From: Candidatus Contendibacter sp.
Lineage (GTDB): Bacteria > Pseudomonadota > Gammaproteobacteria > Competibacterales > Competibacteraceae
Direction: 5' to 3'
NCBI GenBank assembly: GCA_008933795.1
Contig: WBUJ01000002.1
Location: 1-64,000 of the forward strand
Length of the DNA stretch: 64,000 nucleotides
Part shown: one piece after another, positions 14,630 to 37,022 of the stretch
Numbering within the stretch: the first letter of the stretch is position 1
How the letters are laid out: every line of letters starts with the position of its first letter
Translations under genes and position numbers: made by a program
Notes under the pieces: generated by a model
What the model was told of the DNA's origin: nothing
What the model saw: the letters and a program-made list of their open reading frames with translations, nothing else
Databases searched by the model: none

Positions 14630-14637
14630 GGGCGATG

Positions 14638-14706
14638 ATGTGACTAGTGGCTAGTGGTTAGTGATGGGTGGCGAGTGCCGTCCACTGATCACTGTCTACT
14701 GATCAC
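14638..14706. repeat. Direct/inverted repeat hairpin between livK and livH
   Basis: This stretch contains GACTAGTGGCTAGTGGTTAG followed by the near-complementary CACTGATCACTGTCTACTG and ATCACTAGC, able to fold into a long imperfect hairpin. A related motif (AGTCAGTGATCAGTGG) occurs near 34989-35004. Its position between the binding-protein and permease genes suits a structure that keeps livK message higher than livHM; that is inference. Confidence 0.5.
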
Positions 14707-14712
14707 TAGCTC

Positions 14713-15852: not shown

Positions 15853-15896
15853 GCCGATCTTCTCCCTTGGGGTGATGTTTTATGTTGCGTAGGGAC

Positions 15897-15923
15897 GAAC
15901 GCGGGGCTTGCTCCCGCGCGTTC
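15897..15923. other. Hairpin between iorB and livK
   Basis: GAACGCGGG and CCCGCGCGTTC pair around a GCTTGCT loop with one bulge. No T-run follows on either strand, so it is more likely an RNA-stability or processing structure than a classical terminator. Confidence 0.45.
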
Positions 15924-15944
15924 ATTCGCGTTCATTATGGATGA

Positions 15945-16568: not shown

Positions 16569-18429
16569 GGGGCTGAATCCGAATGACGCGGTTTTGCGGT
16601 TGCGGCTGGACGATGGCCTCGGGGGCGCAGGTCTCGACGCACATGTGGCAGCCGGTGCAGGCGTTGGCGTCGATACGAGCGAACACCAGTTCCTTGCTCT
16701 TGCCGCTCTTGGCGGTCACGGTTTCGCGGCGAGCGACGAAAATCGCCGGGCAGCCGAGGTCGATGCAGTTACCGCAGCCGGTGCATTTATCGTCGATGAC
16801 CGCGTAGGAGCGGAATCGCTCGAAGCGGTCGGTGAGTGAGCAGGGGCGGTTGGTGATGATGACCGAGGGTTCTTCCATCTTGGTCTCTTCCCGCACCAGT
16901 TTGACCATGGTCGGCAGTTCGTAGGGATCGACCATGCGGATGCGTTCGGGGCGAACGCCCAGCGCCTCGACCAGCTTAGCGAAATCCACGCGCGGGGCGG
17001 GGAGACCATGCAGATCCTCGCCGGTGCCGGGGTTCTCCTGACCACCGGTCATGCCGACCGAGCGGTTGTCCAGCAGCAGCACGGTGACGTTGCCCCGGTT
17101 GTAGATCATGTTCAACAGACCCTGCATCCCCATGTGCAGGAAGGTGGAGTCGCCGATGACCGCGACGATACTTTTCTTCTCGTCAGACTCACCGCGCCCT
17201 TTGTCCATGCCGTGGGCCATGCTCAGCGAGGCGCCCATGCAGGTGCAGGTGTCCAGGGCGTTCCACGGATGGCCGGCGCCGAGGGTGTAGCAGCCGATGT
17301 CGCCGATGATGTTGAGGTTGCGGATGTGGGAGAGGGCGAAGTAGGGGCCGAGATGCGGGCAGGAGGCGCACATGGTCGGCGGGCGCGGGAAAACGCTGGC
17401 CTGGGAGCGTTTCGGGACCTCGTAGGGTTCGCCCAGCAGGGGCTTGATGGCCGGACGGAGTACGTTGGGCGCCAATTCGCCGAAGCGCGGCAGAATGTCC
17501 TTGCCGCGCACGTCCAACCCGGCGGCGCGAATTTCAGTTTCCAGCAGCGGTTCGGTTTCCTCGACCACCACCAGCGTATCTACCTGACCGGCGAAGGCGC
17601 GGATTTGGTCCAGCGGCGGCGGACAACTGAAGCCGAGCTTGAGCACGGGCGCGTTCGGGAAGGTCTCGCGGACGTGCATGAACGCGGGGCCGGAGGTGAC
17701 GAAACCGATGCGGTGGTCGCTGCCGGCGAACGCGACGTTGAGGTCGATGGTTTCGCTCAGCTCGCGGAATTTGCGGTCGCGCTCGTGCATCAGTGGCAGA
17801 CGCGGCTTGGCGTTGGCGGGAGTCATTACCCAACGCTGGGGATTTTTCTGAAAGCCGGCGGCAGGGTGCTCGATCCGCTCGCCTTCGACCGTGACCATGG
17901 CTTTGACATGGCAGACGCGGGTCGTCATGCGGACGATGACCGGGACTTCGTATTCCTCGGAGAGGTCAAAGGCCCGCTTGACCATTTCGTAGGCTTCCTG
18001 GGAATCCGCCGGCTCCAGGATCGGCAGGTGGCCGAATCGGCCCCAGTAGCGGGAATCCTGCTCGTTCTGCGAGGAGGACAGCCCCACGTCGTCGGCCACC
18101 ACGATCACCAGCCCGCCGACCACTCCGGCCAGCGACTGGGTCATGAACGCATCGGAAGCGACGTTCATGCCGACGTGCTTCATGGCCGCCAAGGAACGCG
18201 ATCCCGCCAGCGAAGCGCCGATGGCCACTTCCACCGCCACCTTTTCGTTGACCGACCATTCGGAGTAGATGTCGGGATAAAGCGCGATGTTTTCCAGGAT
18301 TTCGGTGGCGGGGGTGCCAGGATAGGCGGCAGCGACCCGGACGCCGGCTTCCCAGGCGGCGCGGGCGACCGCTTCGTTGCCGGAGAGGAGATGACGGCTT
18401 TCAGCCTTGGCTTGAACCACGGCATTCAT
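16561..18429 (-). CDS. iorA: Indolepyruvate ferredoxin oxidoreductase, alpha subunit
   Basis: The large subunit, 622 residues. The N-terminal pyrimidine-binding domain has LLSGNEAVARAAWEAGV and AAYPGTPATEI. The central part has CASCPHLGPYFAL. The thiamine-diphosphate site is GDIGCYTLGAGHPWNALD plus VIGDSTFLHMGMQGLLNMIYN near residue 440. The C-terminus carries two ferredoxin-type clusters, CTGCGNCIDLGCPAIF and CTGCHMCVETCAPEAI, for 2 x [4Fe-4S]. Flanking livK paralogues and paaK place it in aromatic amino-acid catabolism. A full-length, apparently intact enzyme. Confidence 0.95.
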   Translation of the reverse strand: MNAVVQAKAESRHLLSGNEAVARAAWEAGVRVAAAYPGTPATEILENIALYPDIYSEWSVNEKVAVEVAIGASLAGSRSLAAMKHVGMNVASDAFMTQSLAGVVGGLVIVVADDVGLSSSQNEQDSRYWGRFGHLPILEPADSQEAYEMVKRAFDLSEEYEVPVIVRMTTRVCHVKAMVTVEGERIEHPAAGFQKNPQRWVMTPANAKPRLPLMHERDRKFRELSETIDLNVAFAGSDHRIGFVTSGPAFMHVRETFPNAPVLKLGFSCPPPLDQIRAFAGQVDTLVVVEETEPLLETEIRAAGLDVRGKDILPRFGELAPNVLRPAIKPLLGEPYEVPKRSQASVFPRPPTMCASCPHLGPYFALSHIRNLNIIGDIGCYTLGAGHPWNALDTCTCMGASLSMAHGMDKGRGESDEKKSIVAVIGDSTFLHMGMQGLLNMIYNRGNVTVLLLDNRSVGMTGGQENPGTGEDLHGLPAPRVDFAKLVEALGVRPERIRMVDPYELPTMVKLVREETKMEEPSVIITNRPCSLTDRFERFRSYAVIDDKCTGCGNCIDLGCPAIFVARRETVTAKSGKSKELVFARIDANACTGCHMCVETCAPEAIVQPQPQNRVIRIQPHG

Positions 18430-19746: not shown

Positions 19747-20781
19747 TCACGGTGAATCCGGCGCCTGGGTTTGAACCGGGTTGGAGGGGAGAGGAGGCCA
19801 AGCTTCCAACTGGCGTTGCAAGTGTTGCCGATCCGCCAACGCCGCTTTCAATTCGCCGCGCAGGGCTTCCGCATCGCGGATGGCATCGAGATAGCGCGTT
19901 TCCGCGAGTTGAAGCAGCGAGCGTAACTGCTCGATTTCATTAACTAAAGTGCGCTGGCGTTCCTCGGCTACAGCCAGGGTGGCCCGCAGTTCGGTAGTTT
20001 CACGGTGCTGGATTTCCCGTTGCTCCCGCCAGGCGATTTCCTGATTTTTCCAGTCCTGGCGCTCGGTTGCGAAGGTCTGACGTTCCGCTGTCTGTTCGGC
20101 GCGCAGTTGATCGAGCATGGCCAGCCATCGCGCCTCGCTGGCTTCGCCACGCTGGCGTTCGGTTTCAAACCGCTGCCTGGCTTCAGCCAGTTGTTGATCC
20201 ATGTCTGTCCGGGTTTGGTGTAGCGTAGCTTCAATCTGGGCAATACGGGCGGTGGTTTCGGCGCGGATTTGGGCGACGGTGTCCGTGGCGGCTTGAACGC
20301 GCTGTTCGGCGGCCTGAATAGCGGATTCGGCGGCGGCGCGGCGTTCCTGTTCTACCAACAGCCGGTCGGTAAGTTCGCGGTTGACCGTTTGGGCGGCTTC
20401 GAGGCGACGGCGTTGATCGTCGGCTTCGTTCCGCAACTGCTGCTGTTCGGCGATGGCGGCGTCGCGAGCCTGTTCGGCGGCAGCAATGGCTTGTGCGCCG
20501 ATCACGCGCTGTTCCTCGAAGGCCGCTTCAGCGTGCTGTACGGCGAGTTTCCAGAAGGCGTCCAGTGCGGCGGCGACGGCTTCGGGAATGGCCGGTGGCA
20601 GGATGACTTTAGGCGCTTCGGCGAGTTGTTGTTGCCAGCTTTTCAGATGCTCGCTGATGGTGGTGTTGCTGCCGGTACCGAGCAGTTCGCGCACGCGCTG
20701 GATGGTGGGATTGAGGCCGCGCCCAAGCAGGGTTTCAGCGGCATCCTGGACTTCTTCGTAACGAATTCCGGAACGAGCCAT
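19747..20781 (-). CDS. KfrA-like DNA-binding coiled-coil protein
   Basis: A 344-residue protein. The N-terminal 60 residues (YEEVQDAAETLLGRG, PTIQRVRELLGTGSNTTISEHL) match the KfrA N-terminal DNA-binding domain, and the rest (about 75-325) is one long Ala/Glu/Gln/Arg-rich coiled coil. KfrA of IncP plasmids is an autorepressor with a filamentous tail implicated in plasmid maintenance; chromosomal relatives are often found near mobile islands. Here it stands alone upstream of hipBA and the helicase-methylase operon, with AT-rich palindromes before it that could be its own operator. Whether it regulates the island is not known. Confidence 0.85.
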   Translation of the reverse strand: MARSGIRYEEVQDAAETLLGRGLNPTIQRVRELLGTGSNTTISEHLKSWQQQLAEAPKVILPPAIPEAVAAALDAFWKLAVQHAEAAFEEQRVIGAQAIAAAEQARDAAIAEQQQLRNEADDQRRRLEAAQTVNRELTDRLLVEQERRAAAESAIQAAEQRVQAATDTVAQIRAETTARIAQIEATLHQTRTDMDQQLAEARQRFETERQRGEASEARWLAMLDQLRAEQTAERQTFATERQDWKNQEIAWREQREIQHRETTELRATLAVAEERQRTLVNEIEQLRSLLQLAETRYLDAIRDAEALRGELKAALADRQHLQRQLEAWPPLPSNPVQTQAPDSP

Positions 20782-20845
20782 GGGATCGGTGAAGCTCCGT
20801 GATTATGGGTGATGAAGCGATGATAACAGATAAAATGATTACATA

Positions 20846-20877
20846 ATACGTATATTACATGGATTTACCGAGGTAAA
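20846..20877. promoter_or_regulatory. Candidate KfrA operator/promoter region
   Basis: An AT-rich stretch 65-100 bases upstream of the kfrA-like ATG contains two perfect palindromes: ATACGTAT (20846-20853) and TTTACC-GA-GGTAAA (20864-20877). KfrA proteins repress their own promoters by binding inverted repeats, so these are the natural candidates. Confidence 0.35.
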
Positions 20878-20946
20878 ATTCAAGATTATTCTCATAATCA
20901 TGAATAATGGAATCGCCCTCTAAACTGCTCCTGGCCAGGTTTTCCA

Positions 20947-22200
20947 TCATCGTTTGATGACGCGCTCGCACTGTTTGATCACGATCCGTTCGATGCGCTG
21001 CAACGCCGGATAGGCGCCAAATCGCTCTTCAAAGGTTGTTCGCGCCGAAACCGCCACTTGTGGTAGCCGAGTTGCCATCTCTTCAACCAGCTTGATCAGA
21101 AATCGCGGTCTGATGTCGCACTGTCTGGCGAACGCCTCCCAGTGCGGCCTGGCGATCAGGCTGGGATTGCGCTCGCCGCCGACATCGAACGCAAGATGGG
21201 AGTCGATGCGTTGGATCGCCCGGGTACAGACCAGATCATAGAAAGGCGCCAGGCGGATCGCTCCATTGGGCAGATGCAGCAAAGAAAGATTCTTGGCGTG
21301 CCCATCCGAATTGCCTGCCAGCACATTGAAAATCTGCCAGCGCAACAAATGTTGCGTATCAATCGCCGGTTCGCTGGAAGCGTTCCGCACCAGCAGGTAG
21401 CACTGCCCAAAGGATAGCCCGCCGTCGTTTTGATATTTCTTCTCATGCCCGTATCCCATGGCTTGGCAGAAATCTTCCTGATGCCATCGTTGCACTTCGC
21501 CCCGGTCATCCCGCACGCGGTCGTAACGGGCAATCCGCGCATAGCGGATCCGCTTGATCGACCGCAACTCGATATCGACTACCGGTAAGCCAACTGTTCG
21601 GGCGAGTTGCGTGGTAAAGGTTTCATAAGCAGGCAGATGACGATAGTCCGCCAGCTCGAATTTCAAGATGTGGCTGGAAGGAGCCTCGCTCTGGGGCAGG
21701 AAATAACCTTCGTTCTGGAACAGGACCGGACATTTATCCTGAGCGCCAGCCAGGGATAACCGGGGACGCTCGTCGGCAGGCCATGCGGTATAGATTCGGC
21801 CACGTCGAGCCGCCAGATTGGCCAGATCCTCATCCGTCAGTGGACGGTAATGGCGTTCCCCTGAAGGCTGGCGCTCGACGGGTAAAATGGACAGTGCCCC
21901 AGCGCACTCACCCCCGATGGCGCGTAGCAAATCAAAATCCGTGTTCGGAATCCTGAGATCGCGGACGATGCGCTCCCGGACGCCGCCCTCGGGCAACAAG
22001 TTGGCGAAAAAACGATGGGCGACGCCCTCCTCCGCTGCCGCATCGCCGGCGTCCAGGGGCAAAGTGCGCGAGATGGCAAAACCACCGGTGGCAATCCACT
22101 CGGCGTCATAGCGAAACCCGATCTGACCCAATGAATTGCGCCATAGATAGCCGACCAGTCGTTGCTCGCTCCAAACGTTGAGAGCATCGGGATCGATCAT
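20947..22200 (-). CDS. hipA: HipA-family Ser/Thr kinase toxin
   Basis: A 417-residue HipA-fold kinase, near the usual 420-440. Visible are the N-terminal subdomain (FFANLLPEGGVRERI), the loop SLAGAQDKCPVLF with Ser149 at the position of the E. coli autophosphorylated Ser150, HILKFE, catalytic NSDGHAKN with Asp299, and the Mg-binding FYDLVCT. HipA inactivates glutamyl-tRNA synthetase in E. coli, causing growth arrest and persistence; relatives differ in target. Its ATG overlaps the hipB stop (ATGA), the standard antitoxin-first arrangement. Key residues are intact. Confidence 0.92.
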   Translation of the reverse strand: MIDPDALNVWSEQRLVGYLWRNSLGQIGFRYDAEWIATGGFAISRTLPLDAGDAAAEEGVAHRFFANLLPEGGVRERIVRDLRIPNTDFDLLRAIGGECAGALSILPVERQPSGERHYRPLTDEDLANLAARRGRIYTAWPADERPRLSLAGAQDKCPVLFQNEGYFLPQSEAPSSHILKFELADYRHLPAYETFTTQLARTVGLPVVDIELRSIKRIRYARIARYDRVRDDRGEVQRWHQEDFCQAMGYGHEKKYQNDGGLSFGQCYLLVRNASSEPAIDTQHLLRWQIFNVLAGNSDGHAKNLSLLHLPNGAIRLAPFYDLVCTRAIQRIDSHLAFDVGGERNPSLIARPHWEAFARQCDIRPRFLIKLVEEMATRLPQVAVSARTTFEERFGAYPALQRIERIVIKQCERVIKR

Positions 22201-22490
22201 GACGCCTCAACATCGGTTTTCGTGGGGCGGGAACCCTGCGCGGCAGAAACGGCGCTGCCCCGGGGTTTTACGATGATATCCAGGCCAAGAATTTCAAGCG
22301 CCTTCAATACCTTGCCGATCTCGGCGGTCTCTTTGCCGCGCTCAAACTCGGATAAAAAGCGCGTGCTTAGAGTGCTGAGTCCAGAGACCGTTTCGAGGGT
22401 CAGGCGTCGGCTCTTGCGATGAACGCGCGCCAACCGGCCCAGTTCTGCAACCGTCCGGATCGCCCCGTAAGTGACTTCATCCTTCGCCAT
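22197..22490 (-). CDS. hipB: HipB-like XRE antitoxin
   Basis: A 97-residue helix-turn-helix protein with residues about 12-75 forming the XRE/Cro domain (GRLARVHRKSRRLTLETVSG, STRFLSEFERGKETAEIGKV). I place the start at ATG 22490; 20 extra upstream codons are open but not conserved-looking. It is the antitoxin and repressor partner of HipA and is followed directly by hipA. The short tail after the HTH ends in a Ser/Ala/Pro-rich segment. Confidence 0.88.
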   Translation of the reverse strand: MAKDEVTYGAIRTVAELGRLARVHRKSRRLTLETVSGLSTLSTRFLSEFERGKETAEIGKVLKALEILGLDIIVKPRGSAVSAAQGSRPTKTDVEAS

Positions 22491-22512
22491 GGCGATGCCT
22501 GTGAAAAGTACT

Positions 22513-22564
22513 GTACGGTAAAAAATAGCCTCGCGAAGAGGCAAACTCAAGAAAAATATACCGT
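22513..22564. promoter_or_regulatory. Candidate HipB operators between hipB and the helicase gene
   Basis: Upstream of hipB lie a palindrome GCCTC-GCGAA-GAGGC (22528-22542) nested inside a wider inverted pair, TACGGTA (22514-22520) and TACCGTG (22559-22565). HipB proteins bind such inverted repeats to repress hipBA. The region also lies 160-210 bases before the divergent helicase operon, so binding here could influence both. Confidence 0.35.
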
Positions 22565-22723
22565 GCGTGAAAATTAAACAGACTTCCCGGACTATGGCGA
22601 CCCGAATGTACTTTTATCATCGCATCCGCCGCGACTTGGCAGCACAATATCGTTGCATCCTCGCTGATGTCCCTGGCAACGCTAATCTCGGCTATCGCGG
22701 CAAGGCCCCTTTGGAGAGACTCA

Positions 22724-25700
22724 ATGCCCACGTCAAATAACCACTCCGGCCTGCGCGACAACCACACTAGAGGAACGGTCGCCGACTTCCTGCGGGCGAA
22801 AATCCAGAGCGGCTCCCAGCTCTCTATCGTATCGGCCTACTTCACCATCTACGCTTACGACGCGCTCAAGGAGGCGCTCGAGCGGATTGAACATCTCGAT
22901 TTTCTCTTCGGCGAGCCAGCCTTCGTCAATCGTCTCGACCCCGGCAAGACCGAGAAAAAAGCGTTCATTATCAACGCCGATGGTTTGGCACTCGCCAACC
23001 AGCTTCAGCAGAAACGCATCGCCCGGGAGTGCGCCGACTGGATCGAGCGCAAGGTGGACATCAAGACCATCAGGCAAGCCAACCTCCTGCACGGCAAGAT
23101 GTATTACATCGCCACCGCTGGCGTAGAGGAGGCCATTCTCGGCAGTTCCAACTTCACGGTGCGCGGTCTCGGCCTCAGCCATGCCGGCAACAACATCGAA
23201 CTGAACCTCATCGTGGACGGCAACCGCGACCGTCGGGAACTCAAGCAATGGTTCGACGAGCTTTGGGGCAACGACGCTCTCGTGAAGGACGTGAAGCAGG
23301 ACGTCCTCAACGACCTCAAGCAGCTCTACGAGAACCACACCCCGGAGTTCATCTACTACAAGACGCTGTTCCACCTCTTCGAGAAATTCCTCGGCGACGC
23401 TGGCAAGACCGACGCGGACCTGGGCAAGACCAGCCTGTTCGAGACCGAAATCTGGAAGGCGCTGTTCGAGTTCCAGAAGGACGGCGCCAAAGGCGCCATC
23501 AACAAAATCCTCCGCCACAACGGCTGCATCATCGCGGACAGCGTCGGCTTGGGGAAAACCTACGAGGCGCTCGCCGTCATGAAATACTTCGAGTTGAAGA
23601 ACGAGCGCGCTCTCGTTCTCTGCCCGAAGAAGCTCCGCGACAACTGGACGGTTTATAAAGCCAACAGCCTCCTCAATCCGTTCGTCTCAGACCGCTTCCG
23701 CTACGATGTCGTTTCCCACACCGACCTCAGCCGCGAGACCGGCACCTCCGGCGATCTCAATCTCGCGGCCCTGAACTGGGGCAACTACGACCTCATCGTC
23801 ATTGACGAGTCGCACAACTTCCGCAACAACACGCCCGGCAAGCGCGACGAGGACGGCAACATCATCCGCAAGAGCCGCTACCAGCGGCTCATGGATGACC
23901 TCATCAAATCCGGCGTCCGCACCAAGGTCCTTCTGCTCTCCGCCACCCCGGTCAACAACGACCTCAAAGACCTCCGCAACCAACTCTACTTCCTCACCGA
24001 AAATCGCGACGATGCCTTCGCGGAATCCATCGGCGTCGGCAGCCTCAAGGAAACCCTCGCCACCGCGCAAAAGGTCTTCTCCATCTGGGCGAAAAAGCAA
24101 AGCGCCGAGCGCAAGACCGGCGAACTGCTGGAGAAGCTCAATGCGGCCTTCTTCAAGCTCCTCGACGAACTGACCATCGCCCGCTCGCGCAAGCACATTC
24201 AGAAATACTACCAGGCCGCCATCGCCGATCTCGGCGGTTTTCCGAAACGCGAAAAGCCGGTCTCCATTTATCCCGAGATCGACCTGCGCGAGCGCTTCCT
24301 CTCCTACGACAAGCTCAACGACGAAATCGCCGCCTACAAACTGGCCCTGTTCAACCCGTCCCGATACGTGCTGGAGTCGCACAAGGCCGAGTATGAGAAG
24401 AAGGGTGCCTTCCCGTTCACGCAGGGCCAGCGCGAAACTTTCCTCATCGGCATGATGAAGGTGAACTTCCTCAAGCGCCTCGAAAGCTCCGTCAAATCGT
24501 TTGAGATCACGATGGAGCGCACCATCGCCAAGATCGAGAGCCTCGAACAGAAAATCAAAAACTTCCAGGCGTTGCCCAGCCCGCATCCCGAATCCGGGGA
24601 GTTGGAACTGGAACTCGACGACCCCGGGCGCGACGAAGAGCTGGAGGACGCCGTGCAGGTCGGCGGCAAACTGAAATTTCGGTTGAATCACCTCCGGCTC
24701 GACGGCGACGACGGCTGGCTCAAGGCGCTCAAGCGCGACAAAGACCAGCTCCGCATCCTCTACAATGCCGCGCGGGATGTCACGCCCGAGACCGACGCCA
24801 AGCTGGCCGAACTCAAGAAGCTCATCGCCGCCAAGGTCGCCAAACCCACGACCAACAACCTGGGCGAGCCGAACCGGAAAGTCCTCGTTTTCACCGCGTT
24901 CGCCGACACCGCCGCCTACCTCTATGAATCACTGCTCGACTGGGCGCAGAAGGAACTCGGCATTCACCTGGCCCTGGTCTGCGGTGGCGGCGACACCCGC
25001 ACCACCTTTGGCGCGAGCGCCTACGACCAAATCCTCTTCAACTTCTCACCGCGCTCCAAACACCGCGCCAAAATTCCCACCATGCCGCAGCAGGGTGAGA
25101 TCGATCTCCTCATCGCCACCGACTGCATCAGCGAGGGGCAAAACCTTCAGGACTGCGACTATCTCATCAACTACGACATCCACTGGAATCCTGTCCGCAT
25201 CATCCAGCGTTTTGGGCGTATCGACCGGATCGGCAGCGCCAGCCGCAGCGTGCAGCTCGTCAATTTCTGGCCCACCGAAGACCTCAACAAATACATCAAC
25301 CTCAAAAACCGGGTCGAGGCCCGCATGGCCCTGGTGGACCTCTCCGCCACCTTCGAGGACAACGTGCTCAGGAACGAGGAGATCGAAGAACTCATCTCCG
25401 ACGACCTCCGCTACCGCGACAAGCAACTTCTCCGGCTCAAAGACGAAGTCCTCGACCTCGAAGACCTCGGCGACAGCGTCTCCCTCACCGAATTCACCCT
25501 CGACGATTTTCGCCTTGAGCTGCTGAAATACCTCGAAGCTAACCGCGCCACCCTCGAAGCTGCCCCCTTCGGCCTGTACACCTGTGTTCCGCCGCATCCC
25601 GATTACCCGGTCATCGGCCCCGGCGTCATCTTCTGCTTCCGGCTGGAGGGCCAACGCGGCGGCGCCACCGATGCGAAGCCCGCGCCGAGCGAGTCCATCA

Positions 25701-26059
25701 ACCCGCTCCATCCCTGCTTCCTCGTTTACGTCCTGGACGACGGCAACGTCCGCTTTGGTTTCGCCCACCCGAAGCAGATACTCGACATCTACCGAATCCT
25801 CTGTTCGGGCAAGGCGGAGGTTTACGCCCCGCTTTGCCATCTGTTCGACCAACAAACTCAGCACGGTAGCGACATGAAGGCTTACGACACGCTCTTGCAA
25901 AAAGCCGTGGACTCCCTCGCCGCCACCTTCCGCAAACGCGCCGCCGCCGGCCTCCAGTCCGGGCGCGGCTTCGTTCTGCCAAATGCCCAGGAACAGGTCC
26001 ATGAAAAGACCGACCTCGAACTCGTCACCTGGCTCGTCATTAAGGAGGACAAGGCATGA
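22724..26059 (+). CDS. SNF2-type helicase with N-terminal phospholipase-D-like domain
   Basis: A 1111-residue protein. The start at 22724 has GGAGAG six bases upstream, whereas an earlier ATG at 22667 has none. Residues about 25-190 form a PLD-like domain with one H-x-K (His123, Lys125) and GSSNFT (140-145); the HKD aspartate is not evident, so it may bind rather than cleave DNA. The SNF2/DEAD core has Walker A GLGKT (Lys278), DESH (361-364), LLLSATPVNN, and C-terminal helicase motifs ATDCISEGQNLQ, NPVRIIQRFGRIDRIG near residue 834. It resembles helicases of DISARM- and type I-like defence loci. It overlaps the next gene by ATGA. Leu codons are mostly CTC, unlike flanking chromosomal genes, which favour CTG, suggesting transfer. 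Confidence 0.9.
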   Translation: MPTSNNHSGLRDNHTRGTVADFLRAKIQSGSQLSIVSAYFTIYAYDALKEALERIEHLDFLFGEPAFVNRLDPGKTEKKAFIINADGLALANQLQQKRIARECADWIERKVDIKTIRQANLLHGKMYYIATAGVEEAILGSSNFTVRGLGLSHAGNNIELNLIVDGNRDRRELKQWFDELWGNDALVKDVKQDVLNDLKQLYENHTPEFIYYKTLFHLFEKFLGDAGKTDADLGKTSLFETEIWKALFEFQKDGAKGAINKILRHNGCIIADSVGLGKTYEALAVMKYFELKNERALVLCPKKLRDNWTVYKANSLLNPFVSDRFRYDVVSHTDLSRETGTSGDLNLAALNWGNYDLIVIDESHNFRNNTPGKRDEDGNIIRKSRYQRLMDDLIKSGVRTKVLLLSATPVNNDLKDLRNQLYFLTENRDDAFAESIGVGSLKETLATAQKVFSIWAKKQSAERKTGELLEKLNAAFFKLLDELTIARSRKHIQKYYQAAIADLGGFPKREKPVSIYPEIDLRERFLSYDKLNDEIAAYKLALFNPSRYVLESHKAEYEKKGAFPFTQGQRETFLIGMMKVNFLKRLESSVKSFEITMERTIAKIESLEQKIKNFQALPSPHPESGELELELDDPGRDEELEDAVQVGGKLKFRLNHLRLDGDDGWLKALKRDKDQLRILYNAARDVTPETDAKLAELKKLIAAKVAKPTTNNLGEPNRKVLVFTAFADTAAYLYESLLDWAQKELGIHLALVCGGGDTRTTFGASAYDQILFNFSPRSKHRAKIPTMPQQGEIDLLIATDCISEGQNLQDCDYLINYDIHWNPVRIIQRFGRIDRIGSASRSVQLVNFWPTEDLNKYINLKNRVEARMALVDLSATFEDNVLRNEEIEELISDDLRYRDKQLLRLKDEVLDLEDLGDSVSLTEFTLDDFRLELLKYLEANRATLEAAPFGLYTCVPPHPDYPVIGPGVIFCFRLEGQRGGATDAKPAPSESINPLHPCFLVYVLDDGNVRFGFAHPKQILDIYRILCSGKAEVYAPLCHLFDQQTQHGSDMKAYDTLLQKAVDSLAATFRKRAAAGLQSGRGFVLPNAQEQVHEKTDLELVTWLVIKEDKA

Positions 26060-27099
26060 ACGGCAGCGAGCTCACTACCGATACCGGCTACCAGAGCCTG
26101 CTGAGAAAAATCTCCGAGGTTTACGCCACCGGTCAGGCCCGGGCGGCGCAGGCCGTCAATGTCCACATCACCGAGACCTACTGGCGGATTGGCCGGGACA
26201 TCGTCGAGTTTGAACAGGGCGGCAACATCAGGGCAGATTACGGCAAAGCCTTGCTGGCCAAGCTCAGCCGCGATCTCACTCTGCGCCACGGCAAAGGATT
26301 TAGCAGGAGCAACATGATCTACATGCGCCTCCTCTACCTCCATTACCCAAAAGGTCAGAAGCCTTCTGACTTATTGAGTTGGTCGCACCATGTGGAGTTG
26401 CTCCGCATTGATGACCCCATGGAGCGCAGCTTTTACGAAAAGCAGGCCATCAGGGAAAAATGGTCCGTTCCCGAGCTGAAACGCCAGAAGAAATCCTCTT
26501 TGTTCCTCCGCCTCGCCGCCGGAAAGGACAAGGACGCGATCCTTCAGCTTGCCACCCAAGGTCAGATCATCGCTCAGCCCGCCGACCTGCTCCGTGACCC
26601 CTACGTCTTCGAGTTCCTGAAAATCCCCGAGCCGCACCAGGTTTCGGAGACGGATCTGGAAAGCCGCCTTTGCGATCACCTCCAGCCCTTCCTCCTCGAA
26701 CTTGGCAAAGGCTTCACCTTCGTTGGCCGGCAATACCGCATCACCCTCAGCAACACCCATTACCGGGTCGATCTTGTTTTCTACCACCGCATCCTGCGCT
26801 GTTTTGTCCTTATCGATCTGAAAATCAACGATGTCGAACACTACGACATCGGCCAGATGAACATGTATCTCGGCTATTTCGCCACCGAGGAGAACACTGA
26901 GGGCGACAACCCGCCCATCGGCATCATCCTCACCCGGAACAAGGACGAACTGCTCGTCGAATACGCTACTTACCAGATGAACAGCCAGCTTTTCGTCCAA
27001 AAATACCAGCTTTACCTGCCCGACCGCGAAGAGCTTCGCCGCGAACTGGAGCTTACCCTGCAACTCGCCGACGACAGCGCCCGCCAAGAACAGCCATGA
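26056..27099 (+). CDS. DUF1016 (YhcG-type) PD-(D/E)XK nuclease-fold protein
   Basis: A 347-residue member of the YhcG/DUF1016 family. The N-terminal domain (about 10-160) includes TYWRIGRDIVEFEQGG, YGKALLAKLSRDLTLRHGKG, FSRSNMIYMRLLY and WSHHVELL. The C-terminal PDDEXK domain has VDLVFYHRILRCFVLIDLK with Asp239 and Asp254-Leu-Lys256 (IDLK instead of the commoner IELK). These proteins are often embedded in restriction-modification operons, but their activity is poorly defined. It is sandwiched between helicase and methylase genes with ATGA overlaps at both ends, so it is very likely a subunit of that system. Confidence 0.9.
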   Translation: MNGSELTTDTGYQSLLRKISEVYATGQARAAQAVNVHITETYWRIGRDIVEFEQGGNIRADYGKALLAKLSRDLTLRHGKGFSRSNMIYMRLLYLHYPKGQKPSDLLSWSHHVELLRIDDPMERSFYEKQAIREKWSVPELKRQKKSSLFLRLAAGKDKDAILQLATQGQIIAQPADLLRDPYVFEFLKIPEPHQVSETDLESRLCDHLQPFLLELGKGFTFVGRQYRITLSNTHYRVDLVFYHRILRCFVLIDLKINDVEHYDIGQMNMYLGYFATEENTEGDNPPIGIILTRNKDELLVEYATYQMNSQLFVQKYQLYLPDREELRRELELTLQLADDSARQEQP

Positions 27100-30000
27100 A
27101 ATCCGCCCTCGCCCATTTCCAGACCCTCCCACTCAAGGACGCCGCCCGCCAGCTTCTCGCCCGGCTGGGCTACCAGAGCGACAAGTTCATCGCCGGCGCC
27201 GGCTCCTCGCCGCAGGCTTTTCTCGATCTCTTCGGCTCCGGCCCTGCCTTTGATCCGGCCAAGGCCCTCGTCTCCGAGTGGAAAACCGCCGATCTCCTCT
27301 TCCAACTCACCGATCAGGAACTCAGCCGCGAATCCACCCTCTTCACCGACACCTCGGTTCAAGCCGGTCTGCTGAAATCCTACGTGTTCATCGCTATCGA
27401 GCTGAAGGGCAGCGACTACGCCCGTGGCAAATTCTCGGCCATCGCCCGCCAGATGAACCGGCTTTTCCCCATGCCCGTCATGGTGTTCTTCAAGCACCAG
27501 GACCGCCTCACCATCGCCGTCATCAACCGGCGCGTGAACAAGCTCGACGAAAGCAAGGATGTGCTCGGCAAAGTCACCCTGATCAGCGGGATCGCCCTGG
27601 CCCAGCCCCACCGTGGCCACCTCGACATCCTCGCCGCGCTGGCGCTGCCCAAGCTCGTCCATCCGCAAAAGAAGCCCATCACCGACTTCGACACGCTCCA
27701 CGCCGCGTGGGAGCAGATCTTCAACGTTGAGTTGCTCAACGAACGCTTCTACCGCGAGCTGGCCAACTGGTATTTCTGGGCGCTCCCGCAGGTCGAGTTC
27801 CCGGCCGATCTCGAAGCCGACGCCGAGAAACGCCGCGCCACCGGCCTGATCCGGCTGCTCACGCGCCTGATCTTCTGCTGGTTCCTCAAGGAAAAGGGCC
27901 TCATCCCGGAGCAACTGTTCCACCCTACCGACCTTGAGACCACCATCCTCACCGATTTCGATGACGCCAGTTCCACCTACTATCAGGCCATCCTGCAAAA
28001 CCTCTTCTTCGCCACACTGAATCAGCGCATGGGCAAGGACGCCAAAGGCCAGCCCTACCGCTGCTTCGCCAAGGACGAAGGCTTCCAGAAAAACCGCGCC
28101 ACCTACGATGTCAACAACCTCTACCGCTACGAATCCCTCTTCCGCGCAGCGCCGGACGCCGCCCTCGCCCACTTCGCCGATATCCCGTTCCTCAACGGCG
28201 GCCTTTTCGAGTGCCTCGACCGCACCGAGGACGACACCGGCAAGAAGCGCTACCTCGACGGCTTCTCCCGCAATCCCAAAAAGCGCCCCACCGTTCCCAA
28301 CCGCCTCTTCTTCGGCGGCGAACAGGAATCCGACCTCTCCGCGGCCTATGGCGACACCAAGCGCAAAAAGGAAAAGGTCGCCGGCCTCATCCGCATCCTG
28401 AACCGCTACAAGTTCACCATCGTCGAGAACACCCCCATCGATCAGGAAATCGCCCTCGACCCCGAACTCCTCGGCAAGGTCTTCGAGAACCTCCTCGCCT
28501 CCTACAACGAGGAAACCAGGACCACCGCCCGCAAGCAGACCGGCTCGTTCTACACCCCGCGCCCCATCGTGGACTACATGGTGGACGAGTCGCTCAAGGC
28601 CCACCTCACCCGCGTCCTTGTGGAAAAGGCCGGCATGAAGGAACCCGATGCCCGCGCCGGGCTGGACCTTCTCTTCGCCTACACCGAGAAAGCGCACGCC
28701 TTCACCGCGCCCGAAGTCGCCTGCCTCATCGCCGCCATCGACGCCCTGAAAATCCTCGATCCCGCCTGTGGTTCCGGCGCTTTCCCCATGGGCGTCCTCC
28801 ACAAGCTCGTTTATATCCTCGGCAAGCTCGATCCCGACAACGACCGCTGGAAGCAGACCCAGCTCGCCAAGCTCGACTCCGCCCCCATGCGCGAGGAACT
28901 GGAGCGCGCCTTCGCCGACAACAACGATGACTACGGCCGCAAGCTCTATCTGATCGAAAACTGCCTCTACGGCGTGGACATCCAGCCCATCGCCATCCAG
29001 ATCACCAAGCTCCGCTTCTTCATCTCCCTCGTCTGCGACCAAAAGATCAACCGCGACAAAGCGAAAAACCACGGCATCCGTCCGCTGCCCAATCTGGAAA
29101 CCAAGTTCGTCGCGGCAAATACGCTGATTGGCCTGCCGGAGATGAATCAGATGGAGCTGGTCGATCCTCGGGTTTACCAAATAGAGGCGGAGATCGAAGC
29201 CCTCTATCACAGCCACTTTTCCGAGCAGAGACGCGACAGGAAGCTGGCCAATCAACGCAAGGTCAAAAGCCTCCGCCAGGAACTCGGGAAGCTACTCGCT
29301 GAAAGCCTCATGGCCCCGAAAAAGGCGCAACACGTTGCCGAATGGGATGCCTTTGATCCGCAATCCTCTGCCGATTTTTTTGATCCACACTGGATGTTTG
29401 GACGCTCGCTGACGGAAGGATTTGATATCGTCATCGGAAATCCGCCTTACATCCAGATTCAGAAGTTCCCCGCTGCTCAAAAAACGAATTGGGAAGCGCA
29501 GAAGTTCACCACTTACGCGGCCATGGCTGACATCTACTGCCTCTTCTACGAGCGGGGCGCAAAGTTACTTCGCGCTGACGGCCATCTTTGCTACATCACC
29601 TCCAACAAATGGATGCGCGCGGGCTATGGCAAGAAACTGCGATTATTTCTCGCAGTGAATACAACACTCCTTCAGGTCATCGACTTTGCCGAGTTGCCTG
29701 TGTTTGTAGCAGCAACGGACACCGCAATTATACTCGTTAGTAAAGACCGACCTCGCCCCAAGCATAAAATCAAGTCAGTTGTGGTAAAAGAGGCCACAGA
29801 TATCAAGGATTTAACAGCAATAGTTCACGGACGTTTTGCAGTCCGAGAACAATGCACACTTCAAAAAGACGGATGGGTTTTGGAAGCGTCATCAGTTCTC
29901 ACGCTTCTCGCGAAGCTCCGCAGTGTAGGCAAGCCCCTTGGCGAAGTCGTGAATCGACGATTCTACTACGGTATAAAAACAGGCTTGAATGAAGCGTTCG

Positions 30001-30767
30001 TCGTTAATCGCGCAACCCGGGATGAACTGATTGCAGAACATCCATCATCGACGCAGATATTGAAACCATTCATTCACGGTGCAGACGCGAAAAAGTGGAC
30101 GGTTGATTTGAGGGATGAATGGCTCATCTATGTTCCGTGGCATTTTCCATTGCATTTGGATACCTCCGTCAGCGGCCCAAGTAAGGAAGCTGAAGTGCTT
30201 TTCCAAAAAGCTTATCCGGCAGTTTACAGGTATCTACTCAATCACAGGTCGAAGTTGCTCGCCCGCAACGCTGCCGAAACCGGCATACGCTACGAATGGT
30301 ATGCGCTACAGCGGTGGGGAGCAGAATATTGGAGAGAATTTGAGAATCCTAAGATTATCTTTAATGAGACATCGAAGGAACTTCATGCGTTTCTCGATGA
30401 AACTGGACTTTATACTAATAAGACTCTATTCATGCTCATTGCGCCACATCCGAAGCCCTTGCTTGCAGTCCTATTGAGCCGCATGATGGATTGGCTTTTT
30501 CGTCATGAGTTTCCGAGTTGGGGCGATCCTTGGAAAGGTGGAAGGATTCAGTTTAGGGGAGATCGGATGGCTACCGTCCCTATTGCTGATTTTTCCGAGA
30601 AAGTTGCTATCGAGTTCACCAGGATTGTCGATCTCATCCTTGCCGCCAAGAAAGTTGATCCCGCTGCCGACACAAGTCCTTTGGAGCGCGAGATAGACCA
30701 ACAGGTTTACGCCCTCTACGGTCTGACGCCGGATGAAATCGCCATCGTGGAAGGCACCACAAAATGA
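27096..30767 (+). CDS. Eco57I-type adenine-N6 DNA methylase, probably a type IIG-like restriction-modification enzyme
   Basis: A 1223-residue class I SAM methyltransferase. Motif I is LDPACGSGAFPMG (Asp555) and motif IV is NPPY (782-785), giving N6-adenine specificity. The N-terminal region has YVFIAIELKGSDYARG near residue 110, an ExK that could be a PD-(D/E)XK nuclease centre, as in type IIG enzymes. Residues 240-500 contain LIRLLTRLIFCWFLKEKGLIPE and GSFYTPRPIVDYMVDE, common in Eco57I/PglX-like methylases. The last 370 residues should contain the target-recognition domain, and here the DNA becomes markedly more AT-rich (from about 29650). It overlaps the DUF1016 gene by ATGA and its own stop overlaps a further ATG. 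Confidence 0.9.
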   Translation: MKSALAHFQTLPLKDAARQLLARLGYQSDKFIAGAGSSPQAFLDLFGSGPAFDPAKALVSEWKTADLLFQLTDQELSRESTLFTDTSVQAGLLKSYVFIAIELKGSDYARGKFSAIARQMNRLFPMPVMVFFKHQDRLTIAVINRRVNKLDESKDVLGKVTLISGIALAQPHRGHLDILAALALPKLVHPQKKPITDFDTLHAAWEQIFNVELLNERFYRELANWYFWALPQVEFPADLEADAEKRRATGLIRLLTRLIFCWFLKEKGLIPEQLFHPTDLETTILTDFDDASSTYYQAILQNLFFATLNQRMGKDAKGQPYRCFAKDEGFQKNRATYDVNNLYRYESLFRAAPDAALAHFADIPFLNGGLFECLDRTEDDTGKKRYLDGFSRNPKKRPTVPNRLFFGGEQESDLSAAYGDTKRKKEKVAGLIRILNRYKFTIVENTPIDQEIALDPELLGKVFENLLASYNEETRTTARKQTGSFYTPRPIVDYMVDESLKAHLTRVLVEKAGMKEPDARAGLDLLFAYTEKAHAFTAPEVACLIAAIDALKILDPACGSGAFPMGVLHKLVYILGKLDPDNDRWKQTQLAKLDSAPMREELERAFADNNDDYGRKLYLIENCLYGVDIQPIAIQITKLRFFISLVCDQKINRDKAKNHGIRPLPNLETKFVAANTLIGLPEMNQMELVDPRVYQIEAEIEALYHSHFSEQRRDRKLANQRKVKSLRQELGKLLAESLMAPKKAQHVAEWDAFDPQSSADFFDPHWMFGRSLTEGFDIVIGNPPYIQIQKFPAAQKTNWEAQKFTTYAAMADIYCLFYERGAKLLRADGHLCYITSNKWMRAGYGKKLRLFLAVNTTLLQVIDFAELPVFVAATDTAIILVSKDRPRPKHKIKSVVVKEATDIKDLTAIVHGRFAVREQCTLQKDGWVLEASSVLTLLAKLRSVGKPLGEVVNRRFYYGIKTGLNEAFVVNRATRDELIAEHPSSTQILKPFIHGADAKKWTVDLRDEWLIYVPWHFPLHLDTSVSGPSKEAEVLFQKAYPAVYRYLLNHRSKLLARNAAETGIRYEWYALQRWGAEYWREFENPKIIFNETSKELHAFLDETGLYTNKTLFMLIAPHPKPLLAVLLSRMMDWLFRHEFPSWGDPWKGGRIQFRGDRMATVPIADFSEKVAIEFTRIVDLILAAKKVDPAADTSPLEREIDQQVYALYGLTPDEIAIVEGTTK

Positions 30768-30829
30768 ACCTGAAGAGCAAGCGCAGGTTCCTCCTCATCC
30801 CGTTTGCCAATGCACCGCCTCGTCGCTGA
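30764..30829 (+). pseudogene. Truncated fourth coupled reading frame of the methylase operon
   Basis: An ATG overlapping the methylase stop (ATGA, 30764-30767) opens a 21-codon frame beginning MNLKSKRRFLLIPF. The same coupling is used at the two upstream junctions, so this is probably the start of a lost fourth gene, cut after about 15 codons where the hsdM-like tail begins near 30805. Confidence 0.4.
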
Positions 30830-30911
30830 ACTGCGCGCCCAGTTCGCCGAGTCCGCGAAACTGGAATCTACGATACGCGCCCACCTGGAAAAACTCGGCT
30901 ATGGCCTCTGA
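30810..30911 (+). pseudogene. Probable 3' remnant of a type I methylase gene (hsdM tail)
   Basis: The 33-residue frame MHRLVAELRAQFAESAKLE...LEKLGYGL closely resembles the extreme C-terminus of HsdM proteins, which typically end with an ELxxQFxESxxLExxIRxNLxxLGYG helix. Its stop overlaps the ATG of the following DUF1016 gene, as would be natural if hsdM once preceded that gene. The rest of hsdM is absent. Assignment is by memory of the family pattern and should be confirmed by alignment. Confidence 0.5.
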
Positions 30912-31953
30912 TCTCATCTCCGACGACTACACCGCTTGGCTTGCGGACCTCAAGGCCCGCATCCATCAGGCGCAACAACGCGCCACACTCTCCGTCAATC
31001 GCGAGTTGATCTCCCTCTACTGGCAACTCGGGAAGGACATCCTTGCCCGCCAGGCCGATCAGGGATGGGGCGCGAAAGTCATCGAGCGACTGTCCCGCGA
31101 TCTGCGCGCCGCCTTTCCCGAAATGAAAGGCTTCTCCCGCGCCAACCTCCTCTACATGCGGGCCTTTGCCGAAGCATGGCCCGATCCCGCAATTGTCCAA
31201 CAAGCTGTTGGACAATTGCCCTGGGGGCACAACATTGTGCTGCTCACCCGCCTCAAGTCTCCCGAGTGGCGACTCGCCTACGCCCAGCAAGCCATCCAGT
31301 ATGGTTGGTCGCGCAACGTGCTGGACATCCACATCGAAACCCGGCGCCTGGAGCGGCAAGGTCAGGCCATCACCAACTTCGACCTCCGCCTGCCCCAAGC
31401 CCAATCCGACCTCGCCCGGGAGTCCCTCAAAGACCCCTATCGTCTCGACTTTCTCGGACTCAGCAAAGAGGCGGAAGAACGCGCCATCGAGTCCGCCCTC
31501 GTCCAGCACATTACCCACTTCCTCATCGAATTGGGGGCTGGATTCGCCTTCGTAGGCCGACAGGTGCCGTTGGAAGTCGGTGGCGACGATTTTTTCATCG
31601 ACCTCCTCTTCTACCACCTGAAACTGCGTTGCTACGTGGTGATCGAACTCAAGGCCGGCCCCTTCAAGCCCGAACACACCGGCAAACTGGGTTTTTACCT
31701 CAGTGCGGTGGATGCCCAGATCAAGCACCCCGACGACCAACCCACCATCGGCCTCCTGCTCTGCAAAAGCAAAAATAGTGTCGTCGCCGAGTATGCCCTA
31801 CGGGACATCAACAAACCCATCGGCGTAGCCGAATACCAACTCGTTCAGTCCCTCCCCGAACGTCTGCAAACGAATCTGCCGAGCATCGAGGAAATCGAAG
31901 CCGAACTGGCGAACGACATTCCGCCCACGCCGGCAAAGACCAGGAAATCATGA
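30901..31953 (+). CDS. Second DUF1016 (YhcG-type) PD-(D/E)XK nuclease-fold protein
   Basis: A 350-residue paralogue of the protein at 26056-27099, but diverged. The start is ATG 30901 (MASDLISDDYTAWLADLK), overlapping the hsdM-like remnant by 11 bases; a longer open frame from 30733 would run through the methylase gene end and is not credible. N-terminal DUF1016 signatures are SLYWQLGKDILARQ, GWGAKVIERLSRDLRAAFP and FSRANLLYMRAFAE. The nuclease core is FFIDLLFYHLKLRCYVVIELK with Asp234 and Glu249-Leu-Lys251, the canonical ExK. Context suggests it came from a type I restriction-modification locus (hsdM-DUF1016 order) fused next to the Eco57I operon. Confidence 0.9.
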   Translation: MASDLISDDYTAWLADLKARIHQAQQRATLSVNRELISLYWQLGKDILARQADQGWGAKVIERLSRDLRAAFPEMKGFSRANLLYMRAFAEAWPDPAIVQQAVGQLPWGHNIVLLTRLKSPEWRLAYAQQAIQYGWSRNVLDIHIETRRLERQGQAITNFDLRLPQAQSDLARESLKDPYRLDFLGLSKEAEERAIESALVQHITHFLIELGAGFAFVGRQVPLEVGGDDFFIDLLFYHLKLRCYVVIELKAGPFKPEHTGKLGFYLSAVDAQIKHPDDQPTIGLLLCKSKNSVVAEYALRDINKPIGVAEYQLVQSLPERLQTNLPSIEEIEAELANDIPPTPAKTRKS

Positions 31954-35120: not shown

Positions 35121-35209
35121 TCCTCTGCTAACTGGCTGGCCGCCGGCAACGACCTGGAAGCCGTCCAAGCCTGGCTGGCCGAATTCCATGACTCGCCGCA
35201 AACCCTGCG
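35121..35209 (+). pseudogene. Duplicated 5' fragment of the integrase gene
   Basis: The stretch closely matches 35971-36055 inside the tyrosine recombinase gene, encoding LAAGNDLEAVQAWLAEFHD and SPQTLR with only synonymous-looking changes. It has no start and the match stops just before the mazEF promoter. The mazEF pair therefore sits between a partial and a complete copy of the same integrase segment. Confidence 0.85.
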
Positions 35210-35251: not shown

Positions 35252-35479
35252 ATGGCTACCACGCGCGATGCGTTGCTCAAAAACGTCCGGCGCTACCGGG
35301 AACGGATGAAGGCCCAGGGCTTTCGGCAACTGAACCTCTGGGTGCCGGACACCCGCTCGCCTGAGTTCGCCAAGGAATGCCAGCGCCAGTCGCGGTTGGC
35401 CGCGCAGCATGATAGCGAAAGCGACATCATGGATTTCCTCGATGCGGCGGCCGGCGACGTTGAGGGATGGAAACCGTGA
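35252..35479 (+). CDS. mazE: MazE-like antitoxin (DUF3018 family)
   Basis: A 75-residue protein, RYRERMKAQGFRQLNLWVPD and TRSPEFAKECQRQSRL, matching the DUF3018 antitoxins that pair with MazF. The N-terminus would carry the DNA-binding part and the acidic C-terminus (DSESDIMDFLDAAAGD) the toxin-binding part. The stop overlaps the toxin GTG start as GTGA. The gene lies within an integrase-derived duplication. Confidence 0.88.
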   Translation: MATTRDALLKNVRRYRERMKAQGFRQLNLWVPDTRSPEFAKECQRQSRLAAQHDSESDIMDFLDAAAGDVEGWKP

Positions 35480-35802
35480 GGCGGGGAGAATTGGTGACCG
35501 TCGCGCTACAAGGAGATTTTGGCAAACCGCGCCCCGCCCTGATTGTCCAGTCCGATTTGTTCAACGCGGAACATGCGACCCTCTCGGTTTTGCCGATCAC
35601 CAGCGAAATCGTTGATGCGCCGATTTTCAGAATTACCCTCGAACCCTCCGCCACCAACGGCTTGCAAAAGGTTTCCCAAATCATGGTGGATAAAATCGTC
35701 TCTGTGAAACGCGAGAAGGTGAGTGAGCCGTTTGGCCGACTGGAAGAAGAAGCCATGTTGCGCGTCAATCGCGCCTTGGCGGTCTGGTTGGGAATAGCTT
35801 GA
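35476..35802 (+). CDS. mazF: MazF/PemK-type endoribonuclease toxin
   Basis: A 108-residue toxin: RRGELVTVALQGDFGKPRPALIVQ carries the SH3-like barrel core and the conserved GKPRPALIVQS loop, followed by LPITSE and QIMVDKIVSVKRE, the catalytic-region strand. MazF proteins cleave RNA at short sequences. The GTG at 35476 is preferred over the ATG at 35467 because GAGGG (35462-35466) lies nine bases before the GTG but directly abuts the ATG, and because GTGA then couples it to mazE. Confidence 0.9.
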   Translation: MRRGELVTVALQGDFGKPRPALIVQSDLFNAEHATLSVLPITSEIVDAPIFRITLEPSATNGLQKVSQIMVDKIVSVKREKVSEPFGRLEEEAMLRVNRALAVWLGIA

Positions 35803-35855
35803 GGTTCTCCAGGGACAGGCATAACCGTAACGCCCCTTCACTGCCTCCACCGACC

Positions 35856-37022
35856 ATGAAAACCCTTCCGATTCCCACCGCCCCCGCCGCCCCACCGTTG
35901 CCCCTGGAACGCCTCCGCCTGCCCGACGAACTCGACGGCCGCGCCGGCGGCAACCGCGCTGGCCCGGACGTCGTCTGTCAACTGGCTGCTGGCAACGATC
36001 TGGAAGCTGTCCAAGCCTGGCTGGCCGAATTCCACGACTCGCCGCAGACCCTGCGCAACTACCGCAAGGAAGCCGAGCGCCTGCTGCTGTGGGCGCTGCT
36101 GGAACGCGGCAAACCGCTATCCAGCCTCACCCGCGAGGACTGCCTGCTCTACGAAGCCTTCCTCGCCGATCCCCAGCCCCGCGAACGCTGGTGCGGGCAA
36201 AAGGCGACCCGCTTCAGTCCCCACTGGCGACCCTTCCTGGGCCCGCTCAGTCCCGCCAGCCGCAAACTCGCCATGCTGATCATCAACTCCCTGTTCAGCT
36301 ATCTGGTCAAGGCGGGTTATCTGGCCGGCAATCCCCTGGCGCTGGCCCGCCGCCGGGCGCGCGGTCATCAACCCATGCGGCAGGTGGAACGCTTTCTCGA
36401 ACACGATCAATGGCAAGTCCTGCTCGCCACCGTGGACGAACTGCCCCGCGACAGCGAGCGGGACTGCCAGCACCAGGCCCGCGCGAAATACCTGGTCGCC
36501 CTCCTCTACCTGCTTGGCCCCCGGGTCAGCGAAGTCGCCGGCCACGCCATGAGCAGCTTCATCCAGATTCGCGGACGCTGGTGGTGGCGCGTGATCGGCA
36601 AGGGCCGCAAGGAAGCCCAGGTCCCGGTCAATCAGGACATGCTGCAAGCTCTCCGCAACTACCGGCGGTTTTACGGCCTGCCGCCCCTGCCCGCGCCAGA
36701 TGAAACCACCCCACTCGTGCTCAATCTCAAGGGCACCGACGGCATCGGCGACAACATGATTTACCGCATCGTCAAGGATCTGGTCGCGAAAGCGGCGGCG
36801 CGGCTGGAAGCGGAAGATCCCCATCAGGCCGACAAGTTGCGCCGCGCTTCCACCCACTGGTTCCGCCACACCAGCATCACCCATCAGGCCGACGCCGGCA
36901 TCGAGATTCAATTCCTGCAACGCAACGCCCGCCACGCCCGCATCGACACCACCGGCCTGTACCTGCACGCCGAGGAAAGGGAATGGCACGAAACCATGGA
37001 ACGCCATCGCCTCAAAGATTAA
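35856..37022 (+). CDS. Tyrosine recombinase / integrase
   Basis: A 388-residue phage-integrase-family protein. The N-terminal SAM-like core-binding domain (about 55-185) contains AGNDLEAVQAWLAEF and LSPASRKLAMLIINSLFSYLVKAG. Catalytic residues are all present: Arg223 (GPRVSE), Lys249 (IGKGRK), His334 and Arg337 (HWFR), His360 (RHARIDTT) and nucleophile Tyr369 (GLYLH). The start at 35856 (MKTLPIP) is chosen; the upstream extension overlaps mazF. Part of its N-terminal coding region is duplicated upstream of mazEF. It may have mobilised the adjacent island, but no attachment-site repeats were recognised. Confidence 0.92.
   Translation: MKTLPIPTAPAAPPLPLERLRLPDELDGRAGGNRAGPDVVCQLAAGNDLEAVQAWLAEFHDSPQTLRNYRKEAERLLLWALLERGKPLSSLTREDCLLYEAFLADPQPRERWCGQKATRFSPHWRPFLGPLSPASRKLAMLIINSLFSYLVKAGYLAGNPLALARRRARGHQPMRQVERFLEHDQWQVLLATVDELPRDSERDCQHQARAKYLVALLYLLGPRVSEVAGHAMSSFIQIRGRWWWRVIGKGRKEAQVPVNQDMLQALRNYRRFYGLPPLPAPDETTPLVLNLKGTDGIGDNMIYRIVKDLVAKAAARLEAEDPHQADKLRRASTHWFRHTSITHQADAGIEIQFLQRNARHARIDTTGLYLHAEEREWHETMERHRLKD

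Follow-up and report, generated by a model that had tools for sequence, protein, structure and literature searches.

The type IV enzyme SauUSI (PMC7913695) carries an N-terminal HxK PLD nuclease, likely dimeric, and an ATP-driven SF2 motor in one chain, and this protein both translocates and cuts; the protein includes an SRA reader, and the DNA that it cuts is methylated. In the type ISP enzymes LlaGI and LlaBIII, a Mrr-type nuclease, an SF2 motor, an N6-methylase and a recognition domain are united in a single chain with coupling of motor and methylase (PMC4666363). A fusion of an HKD nuclease with an SNF2 motor, accompanied by an N6-methylase, occurs in BREX-Related type 2 (Hma-like) systems, whose defining components are a DUF499 ATPase and DUF3780 (PMC12839542). 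PbeABCD, in which the effector is an HKD + SF2 helicase and which in some cases includes a methylase and an ABC ATPase, requires a CxC ABC ATPase and DndE (PMC10853773).

The window analysed here, a stretch of 64,000 nucleotides from a Candidatus Contendibacter sp. genome (contig WBUJ01000002.1), carries a motor-nuclease gene, HEL, a methylase gene, MTS, and two genes of the DUF1016 (YhcG) family, DUF1016-a and DUF1016-b (Table 1). HEL is similar to SauUSI in its nuclease and motor, but lacks any known reader domain and has a methylase as its partner; compared with the type ISP enzymes, the parts are divided between two proteins and the nuclease is of the HKD/PLD type. Among described architectures, that of BREX-Related type 2 comes closest to HEL, a likeness in architecture only; the window genome is without DUF499, and HEL reached 77.7 bits with the HmaA profile against 432 bits with C3a139. 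The type III restriction-modification (R-M) plasmids Enterococcus hirae pfas4-2 and Methanomethylovorans pMETHO01 carry a member of the HEL family (about 40-45% identity) beside DUF4391 and a DNA methylase. In such type III operons DUF4391 is a separate gene with Mod and Res as partners, whereas MTS joins it to a type IIG-like methylase in one chain, and Res is missing. A YhcG gene between R-M genes, as found here, is also seen in type I operons (Deinococcus pDATS03, hsdM-DUF1016-hsdS), from which the window differs in its HEL/MTS host operon and in having two dissimilar DUF1016 copies.

Comparison with defined defence systems

PglZ (PF08665) and DUF499 (PF04465; BREX-Related type 2/Hma) were absent from the whole genome, and no BrxC/PglY ATPase was found among HEL, DUF1016, MTS and the adjacent ORFs. 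DrmA, DrmB and DrmC were missing from the operon, DrmB and DrmC also from the adjacent genes, and neither a CxC ABC ATPase nor DndE was present in the operon or adjacent ORFs. We therefore do not assign the locus to BREX, BR/Hma, DISARM or Pbe, and the first-pass annotation was right to set BREX and DISARM aside for lack of PglZ and the Drm proteins. HEL scored 122.7 bits with the PADLOC profile of DrmD (C3a139: 432) and 150.9 bits with that of NCBIfam, where the cut-off is 610. A defence of the BREX, BR or DISARM kind, in which HEL senses a phage DNA intermediate, MTS marks self and replication is blocked or the host killed instead of a site being cut, would agree with the RapA/SNF2 motor class that HEL has in common with BrxHII, HmaA and DrmD and with the methylase core that MTS shares with PglX and DrmMI. 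Given that PglZ and DUF499 are missing from the genome and DrmA, DrmB and DrmC from the operon, and that the HKD motif is invariant, we consider such a defence improbable.

As to type III systems, MTS belongs to the Eco57I/N6_Mtase class and not to that of Mod (N6_N4_Mtase), and no Res gene lies beside it. The features of ATP-dependent R-M, namely an N6-methylase with swappable recognition domain and an ATP-driven motor-nuclease, are present by sequence only. Both DUF1016 proteins have the domain and the D...(D/E)xK motif of YhcG/DUF1016 (PDC-S02), which is a single-gene candidate. No single PADLOC or NCBIfam profile covers the HEL/MTS pair, in line with the earlier view of the operon as undescribed, and no paper describing the pair was found in the open-access literature. 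Judged from its genes, HEL/MTS would be an ATP-dependent R-M system that is apparently unnamed.

The HEL and MTS proteins and their pairing

HEL, DUF1016-a and MTS are intact ORFs whose neighbours overlap by 4 bp (ORF list), as first described, and a profile search recovered all of the previously named neighbours (hipBA-like genes, mazEF and a tyrosine integrase). The longest ORF of HEL in the list starts at 22667. Pfam assigned PLDc_2, SNF2-rel_dom and Helicase_C to HEL, DUF1016_N and YhcG_C to DUF1016-a, and Eco57I, N6_Mtase and TaqI_C to MTS. Directly 3' of MTS, DUF1016-b and the scar of an hsdM 3' end had been overlooked. A 74-bp direct repeat (92%; 35136-35209 and 35982-36055) copies part of the integrase gene and flanks mazEF, which looks as if it had been inserted with partial duplication of the integrase.

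Table 1. Features at the HEL/MTS locus, in window coordinates
Feature	Position	Strand	Length	Basis
HEL: HKD/PLD nuclease domain + SNF2-type (RapA-like) SF2 motor	22724..26059	+	1111 aa	Pfam, PADLOC, motifs, model
DUF1016-a: YhcG-family PD-(D/E)XK nuclease, PADLOC PDC-S02	26056..27099	+		profile matches
MTS: DUF4391-like N-terminus + Eco57I/type IIG-like N6-adenine methyltransferase + target-recognition domain	27096..30767	+	1223 aa	
MTS target-recognition region (about residues 786-1185)	29451..30650	+		block replaced in congeners; L216, L219 profiles
Putative hsdM-type methylase scar, overlaps DUF1016-b start	30810..30911	+	last 33 codons	translation, Deinococcus pDATS03 alignment
DUF1016-b: second YhcG-family gene	30901..31953	+		profile matches, alignments
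hipBA-like toxin-antitoxin pair, divergent from HEL	20947..22550	-		profile search
mazEF pair	35252..35802			profile search
Tyrosine integrase gene	35799..37022			profile search

The best PADLOC match of HEL was C3a139 'HKD+Snf2' (E 1e-129, 432 bits), and the top structural match of its predicted model (pLDDT 78) was RapA. An alignment of 65 HEL relatives, covering the HKD, Walker A, DEAH-box-like and arginine finger classes, bore out the helicase motifs reported before, with H123xK125, GSSN140-143, GLGKT275-279, DES361-363 and QRFGRIDR828-835 invariant or nearly so. The dN/dS of HEL was 0.11. HEL is proposed to be the restriction effector; it might also work as an abortive effector, or in a way that involves no cutting.

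For MTS, the best PADLOC matches were type IIG profiles, and the methylase motifs DPACGSG555 and NPPY782, already recognised in the first-pass annotation, were conserved in 51 methylases (dN/dS of the MTS body 0.12-0.16). The ExK nuclease centre suspected in its N-terminus was not conserved, with E102 in 32/51 and K104 in 15/51. Instead, this part of the protein resembles DUF4391 (hhalign probability 94.3%, E 1e-7; Pfam E 2e-5, below the cut-off), a domain for whose function no paper was found in the open-access literature, an unrelated mention only. A model of residues 1-470 (pLDDT 81) gave no PDB fold match with E <0.001. MTS may also be read as a self-contained type IIG enzyme that cuts and methylates, with HEL as an accessory that clears or degrades the cut DNA. 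Its PADLOC matches and the architecture of methylase and recognition regions would fit, but the DUF4391-like N-terminus has neither conserved nuclease residues nor a significant PDB match, and HEL is almost never absent, as would not be required of an accessory; we regard this as unlikely.

Homologues were drawn from viral contigs, GTDB genomes and a class-wide sample, giving 80 GTDB loci and others; they were collected by HEL similarity and come mostly from metagenome-assembled genomes. Loci with a HEL homologue above about 45% identity (cut 45.5%) and at least 700 bp of downstream DNA were taken as testable, and in 65/66 of these, from many phyla, MTS followed HEL; the sole unpaired HEL had 720 bp left on its contig. 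The postulated helicase-methylase operon is thus conserved. Hosts include Proteobacteria, Verrucomicrobiota, Chloroflexota, Cyanobacteria, Bacteroidota and others; among the cultured carriers of the pair are Achromobacter insolitus LMG 6003 (L092) and Comamonas badia DSM 17552 (L151), the latter with DUF1016 as well. Below 45.5% identity MTS followed HEL in 1/48, and a single branch of the HEL tree (SH-aLRT 100) split the proteins with MTS from those without. The lower-identity group, mostly from Firmicutes, showed the order HEL - DUF4391 - type III Mod - Res, an arrangement also present on annotated plasmids of Enterococcus, Aeromonas and an archaeon. In a large group of plasmid and Firmicutes operons (L143, L153, L154, L157, L159 and L191-L193), a HEL-family gene and DUF4391 are added to a complete type III Mod/Res. 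Above the identity cut, the linkage of HEL to MTS marks the two genes as an obligate pair.

Right after MTS, 16/42 scored HEL/MTS loci (among them L020, L021, L081, L092, L095, L102, L105 and L137) carry a gene for a RecF/SMC-like ABC ATPase, which the window locus is without, so the latter may be a reduced subtype. When the loci were divided by MTS tail, into classes set after inspection of the data, the ATPase was found in 0/12 with an LYGL-type tail, the window included, and in 16/30 with other tails (Fisher p 0.001). A loss of the ATPase from the window locus is not favoured, since MTS with an LYGL-type tail never carry it. In the congener locus L216 (G279), the order HEL-DUF1016-MTS-DUF1016 is followed by a gene for a 1029-aa AAA_21/SMC-like ATPase (reverse complement 14370-17459).

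The slot between HEL and MTS

The gap between HEL and MTS measured at most 250 bp in 38/67 loci and contained a DUF1016 gene in 11/67, window included. Other occupants were Schlafen/AlbA (4), KilA-N (2), Uma2 (2), PIN, Fic, BRO-N and an IS200-type transposase; one locus had a short ORF without Pfam match, and 5/67 were left unassigned. As the gap is mostly empty or filled with unrelated genes, the core consists of two genes and a cargo slot. Presence of DUF1016 changed 9 times on the HEL tree, no less often than with shuffled labels (mean 9.6), indicating repeated gain and loss. DUF1016 is missing between the genes in two of the closest HEL relatives, L081 and L084 (HEL identity about 86-90%). 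Most of the DUF1016 proteins found in the slot share no more than 28-53% identity with the window copies.

DUF1016-a itself is well preserved. The PD-(D/E)XK core described earlier was confirmed in 15 proteins (D239 and K256 invariant, position 254 D or E), and a dN/dS of 0.14-0.20, with dS near that of HEL in L216 and L082, reflects purifying selection. DUF1016-a is accordingly maintained, and we propose that it may serve as an accessory or backup nuclease. An obligate three-gene machine, in which the HEL motor feeds DNA to DUF1016 for cutting, would explain the gene overlaps, this selection together with co-inheritance with HEL between congeners, and the recurrence of the order in other phyla. 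It is opposed by the 56/67 loci without DUF1016 in the gap (L081 and L084 included), the unrelated genes taken up by the slot, the random distribution of DUF1016 on the HEL tree and the intact nuclease motif of HEL itself, which leave it quite improbable. The three-gene order proposed in the first-pass annotation does recur (e.g. L082, L105, L116 and L216), but in the 11 loci only, and its DUF1016 did not hold up as a core part. Its distribution marks DUF1016 as a passenger that is frequent and conserved yet can be dispensed with, and as the commonest slot occupant. The self-contained modification-restriction machine envisaged in that annotation would stand as far as the HEL/MTS pair is concerned, but DUF1016 is not core and the MTS N-terminus has no conserved nuclease centre.

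DUF1016-b contains DUF1016_N, YhcG_C and D...(D/E)xK, as does DUF1016-a (Pfam, alignment), to which it is 31% identical; a counterpart (64%) occupies the same position in L216. The translation of the scar just before DUF1016-b reads MHRLVAELRAQFAESAKLESTIRAHLEKLGYGL*. The alignment with hsdM-DUF1016-hsdS of Deinococcus pDATS03 begins inside the scar and runs through the DUF1016 gene, and the scar is therefore most probably what is left of an hsdM gene, namely its 3' end. From this we infer that DUF1016-b and the scar come from a type I R-M operon. A Polaromonas plasmid operon was rejected as the source, as its DUF1016 gene matches (75% nt) but its methylase end is unlike the scar. Among 46 ORFs flanking DUF1016 genes in the class sample, N6_Mtase occurred 5 times and Methylase_S 4 times, suggesting that the DUF1016 family usually travels in R-M operons. 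In the window genome (G000), five DUF1016/YhcG genes pass the Pfam cut-off and a sixth matches weakly; they lie on contigs C127 (two), C111, C40, C130 and C152, and the copy on C111 shares 76% identity with DUF1016-b.

Recognition-region exchange, mobility and proposed mechanism

MTS residues 1-785 are 89-91% identical in the congener loci L216 and L219, and beyond them identity falls to 6-38%. In 50-residue blocks, MTS of L216 (same genus, other chromosomal site; HEL 92%, DUF1016-a 90%, second DUF1016 64%) was 78-98% identical up to residue 750 and 6-28% past about 800, and that of L219 80-100% up to residue 750, 20-46% over 800-1200 and 91% in the last 20 or so residues. The nucleotide breakpoints of this replacement lie at window positions 29446/29463 and 30635, and in the congeners the swap point follows the NPPY motif while HEL is constant. 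In L081, from another phylum, the MTS body is 85-94% and HEL about 86-90% identical, but the recognition region 17%; the region is also replaced in L086 and L126 (MTS alignment). Such recognition-domain exchange is known from other R-M systems (e.g. PMC3077401). As the recognition region is swapped and HEL nearly constant, specificity would reside in MTS and HEL would be a generic effector; MTS is thus proposed as the specificity and modification subunit. In L219 (G285), HEL is broken (no start, internal deletion) with DUF1016-a and MTS intact, an apparent modification-only remnant, so MTS can persist without HEL at least briefly.

Same-genus genomes have other DNA at the window's chromosomal site, where an 11.4-kb stretch with the hipBA-like pair is missing. 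Two congeners have a HEL 92-98% identical, one clearly at another site, and in congener L215 the hipBA-like pair is linked to HEL (96% nt over 20769-26100). The nearest HEL outside the genus is from Verrucomicrobiota (HEL tree), and cross-phylum transfer of the operon is likely. The suggested mobile defence island is thus upheld for the mobility of the operon and not for a local hotspot: the kfrA-PPDK site was rejected as one, relatives having sulfatase, patatin, acyl-CoA or unknown genes there.

From the motifs, linkage and recognition-region swaps, the locus is best read as a two-gene, ATP-dependent R-M system with passenger nucleases (probability roughly 0.6). MTS would read a DNA site with its C-terminal recognition domain and methylate an adenine, as its motifs suggest, thus marking self. 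At an unmethylated site MTS would recruit or load HEL, probably via the DUF4391-like N-terminus; it is the linkage that leads us to guess at a contact between HEL and this domain. On the model of SauUSI and the type ISP enzymes, HEL would then hydrolyse ATP and travel on the duplex, which would be cut by the paired HKD domains of HEL. The HEL/MTS junction takes up various small defence or toxin genes. More tentatively, at somewhat below even odds, HEL and MTS may represent a separate, widespread type of ATP-dependent R-M, in which a DUF4391-linked HKD-SNF2 motor has come to work with either type III Mod/Res or type IIG-like MTS, methylases of two unrelated classes, and a dedicated slot between the subunits collects backup nucleases and toxins such as DUF1016.

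If the two-gene reading is right, a common pair whose members are at present annotated variously as 'helicase-related protein' or 'type IIG' would be one restriction system. The natural swaps of recognition domains beside an unchanged effector would make specificity directly testable, and the slot would offer a clean setting for the role of DUF1016, a very common unexplained nuclease family, in R-M operons.
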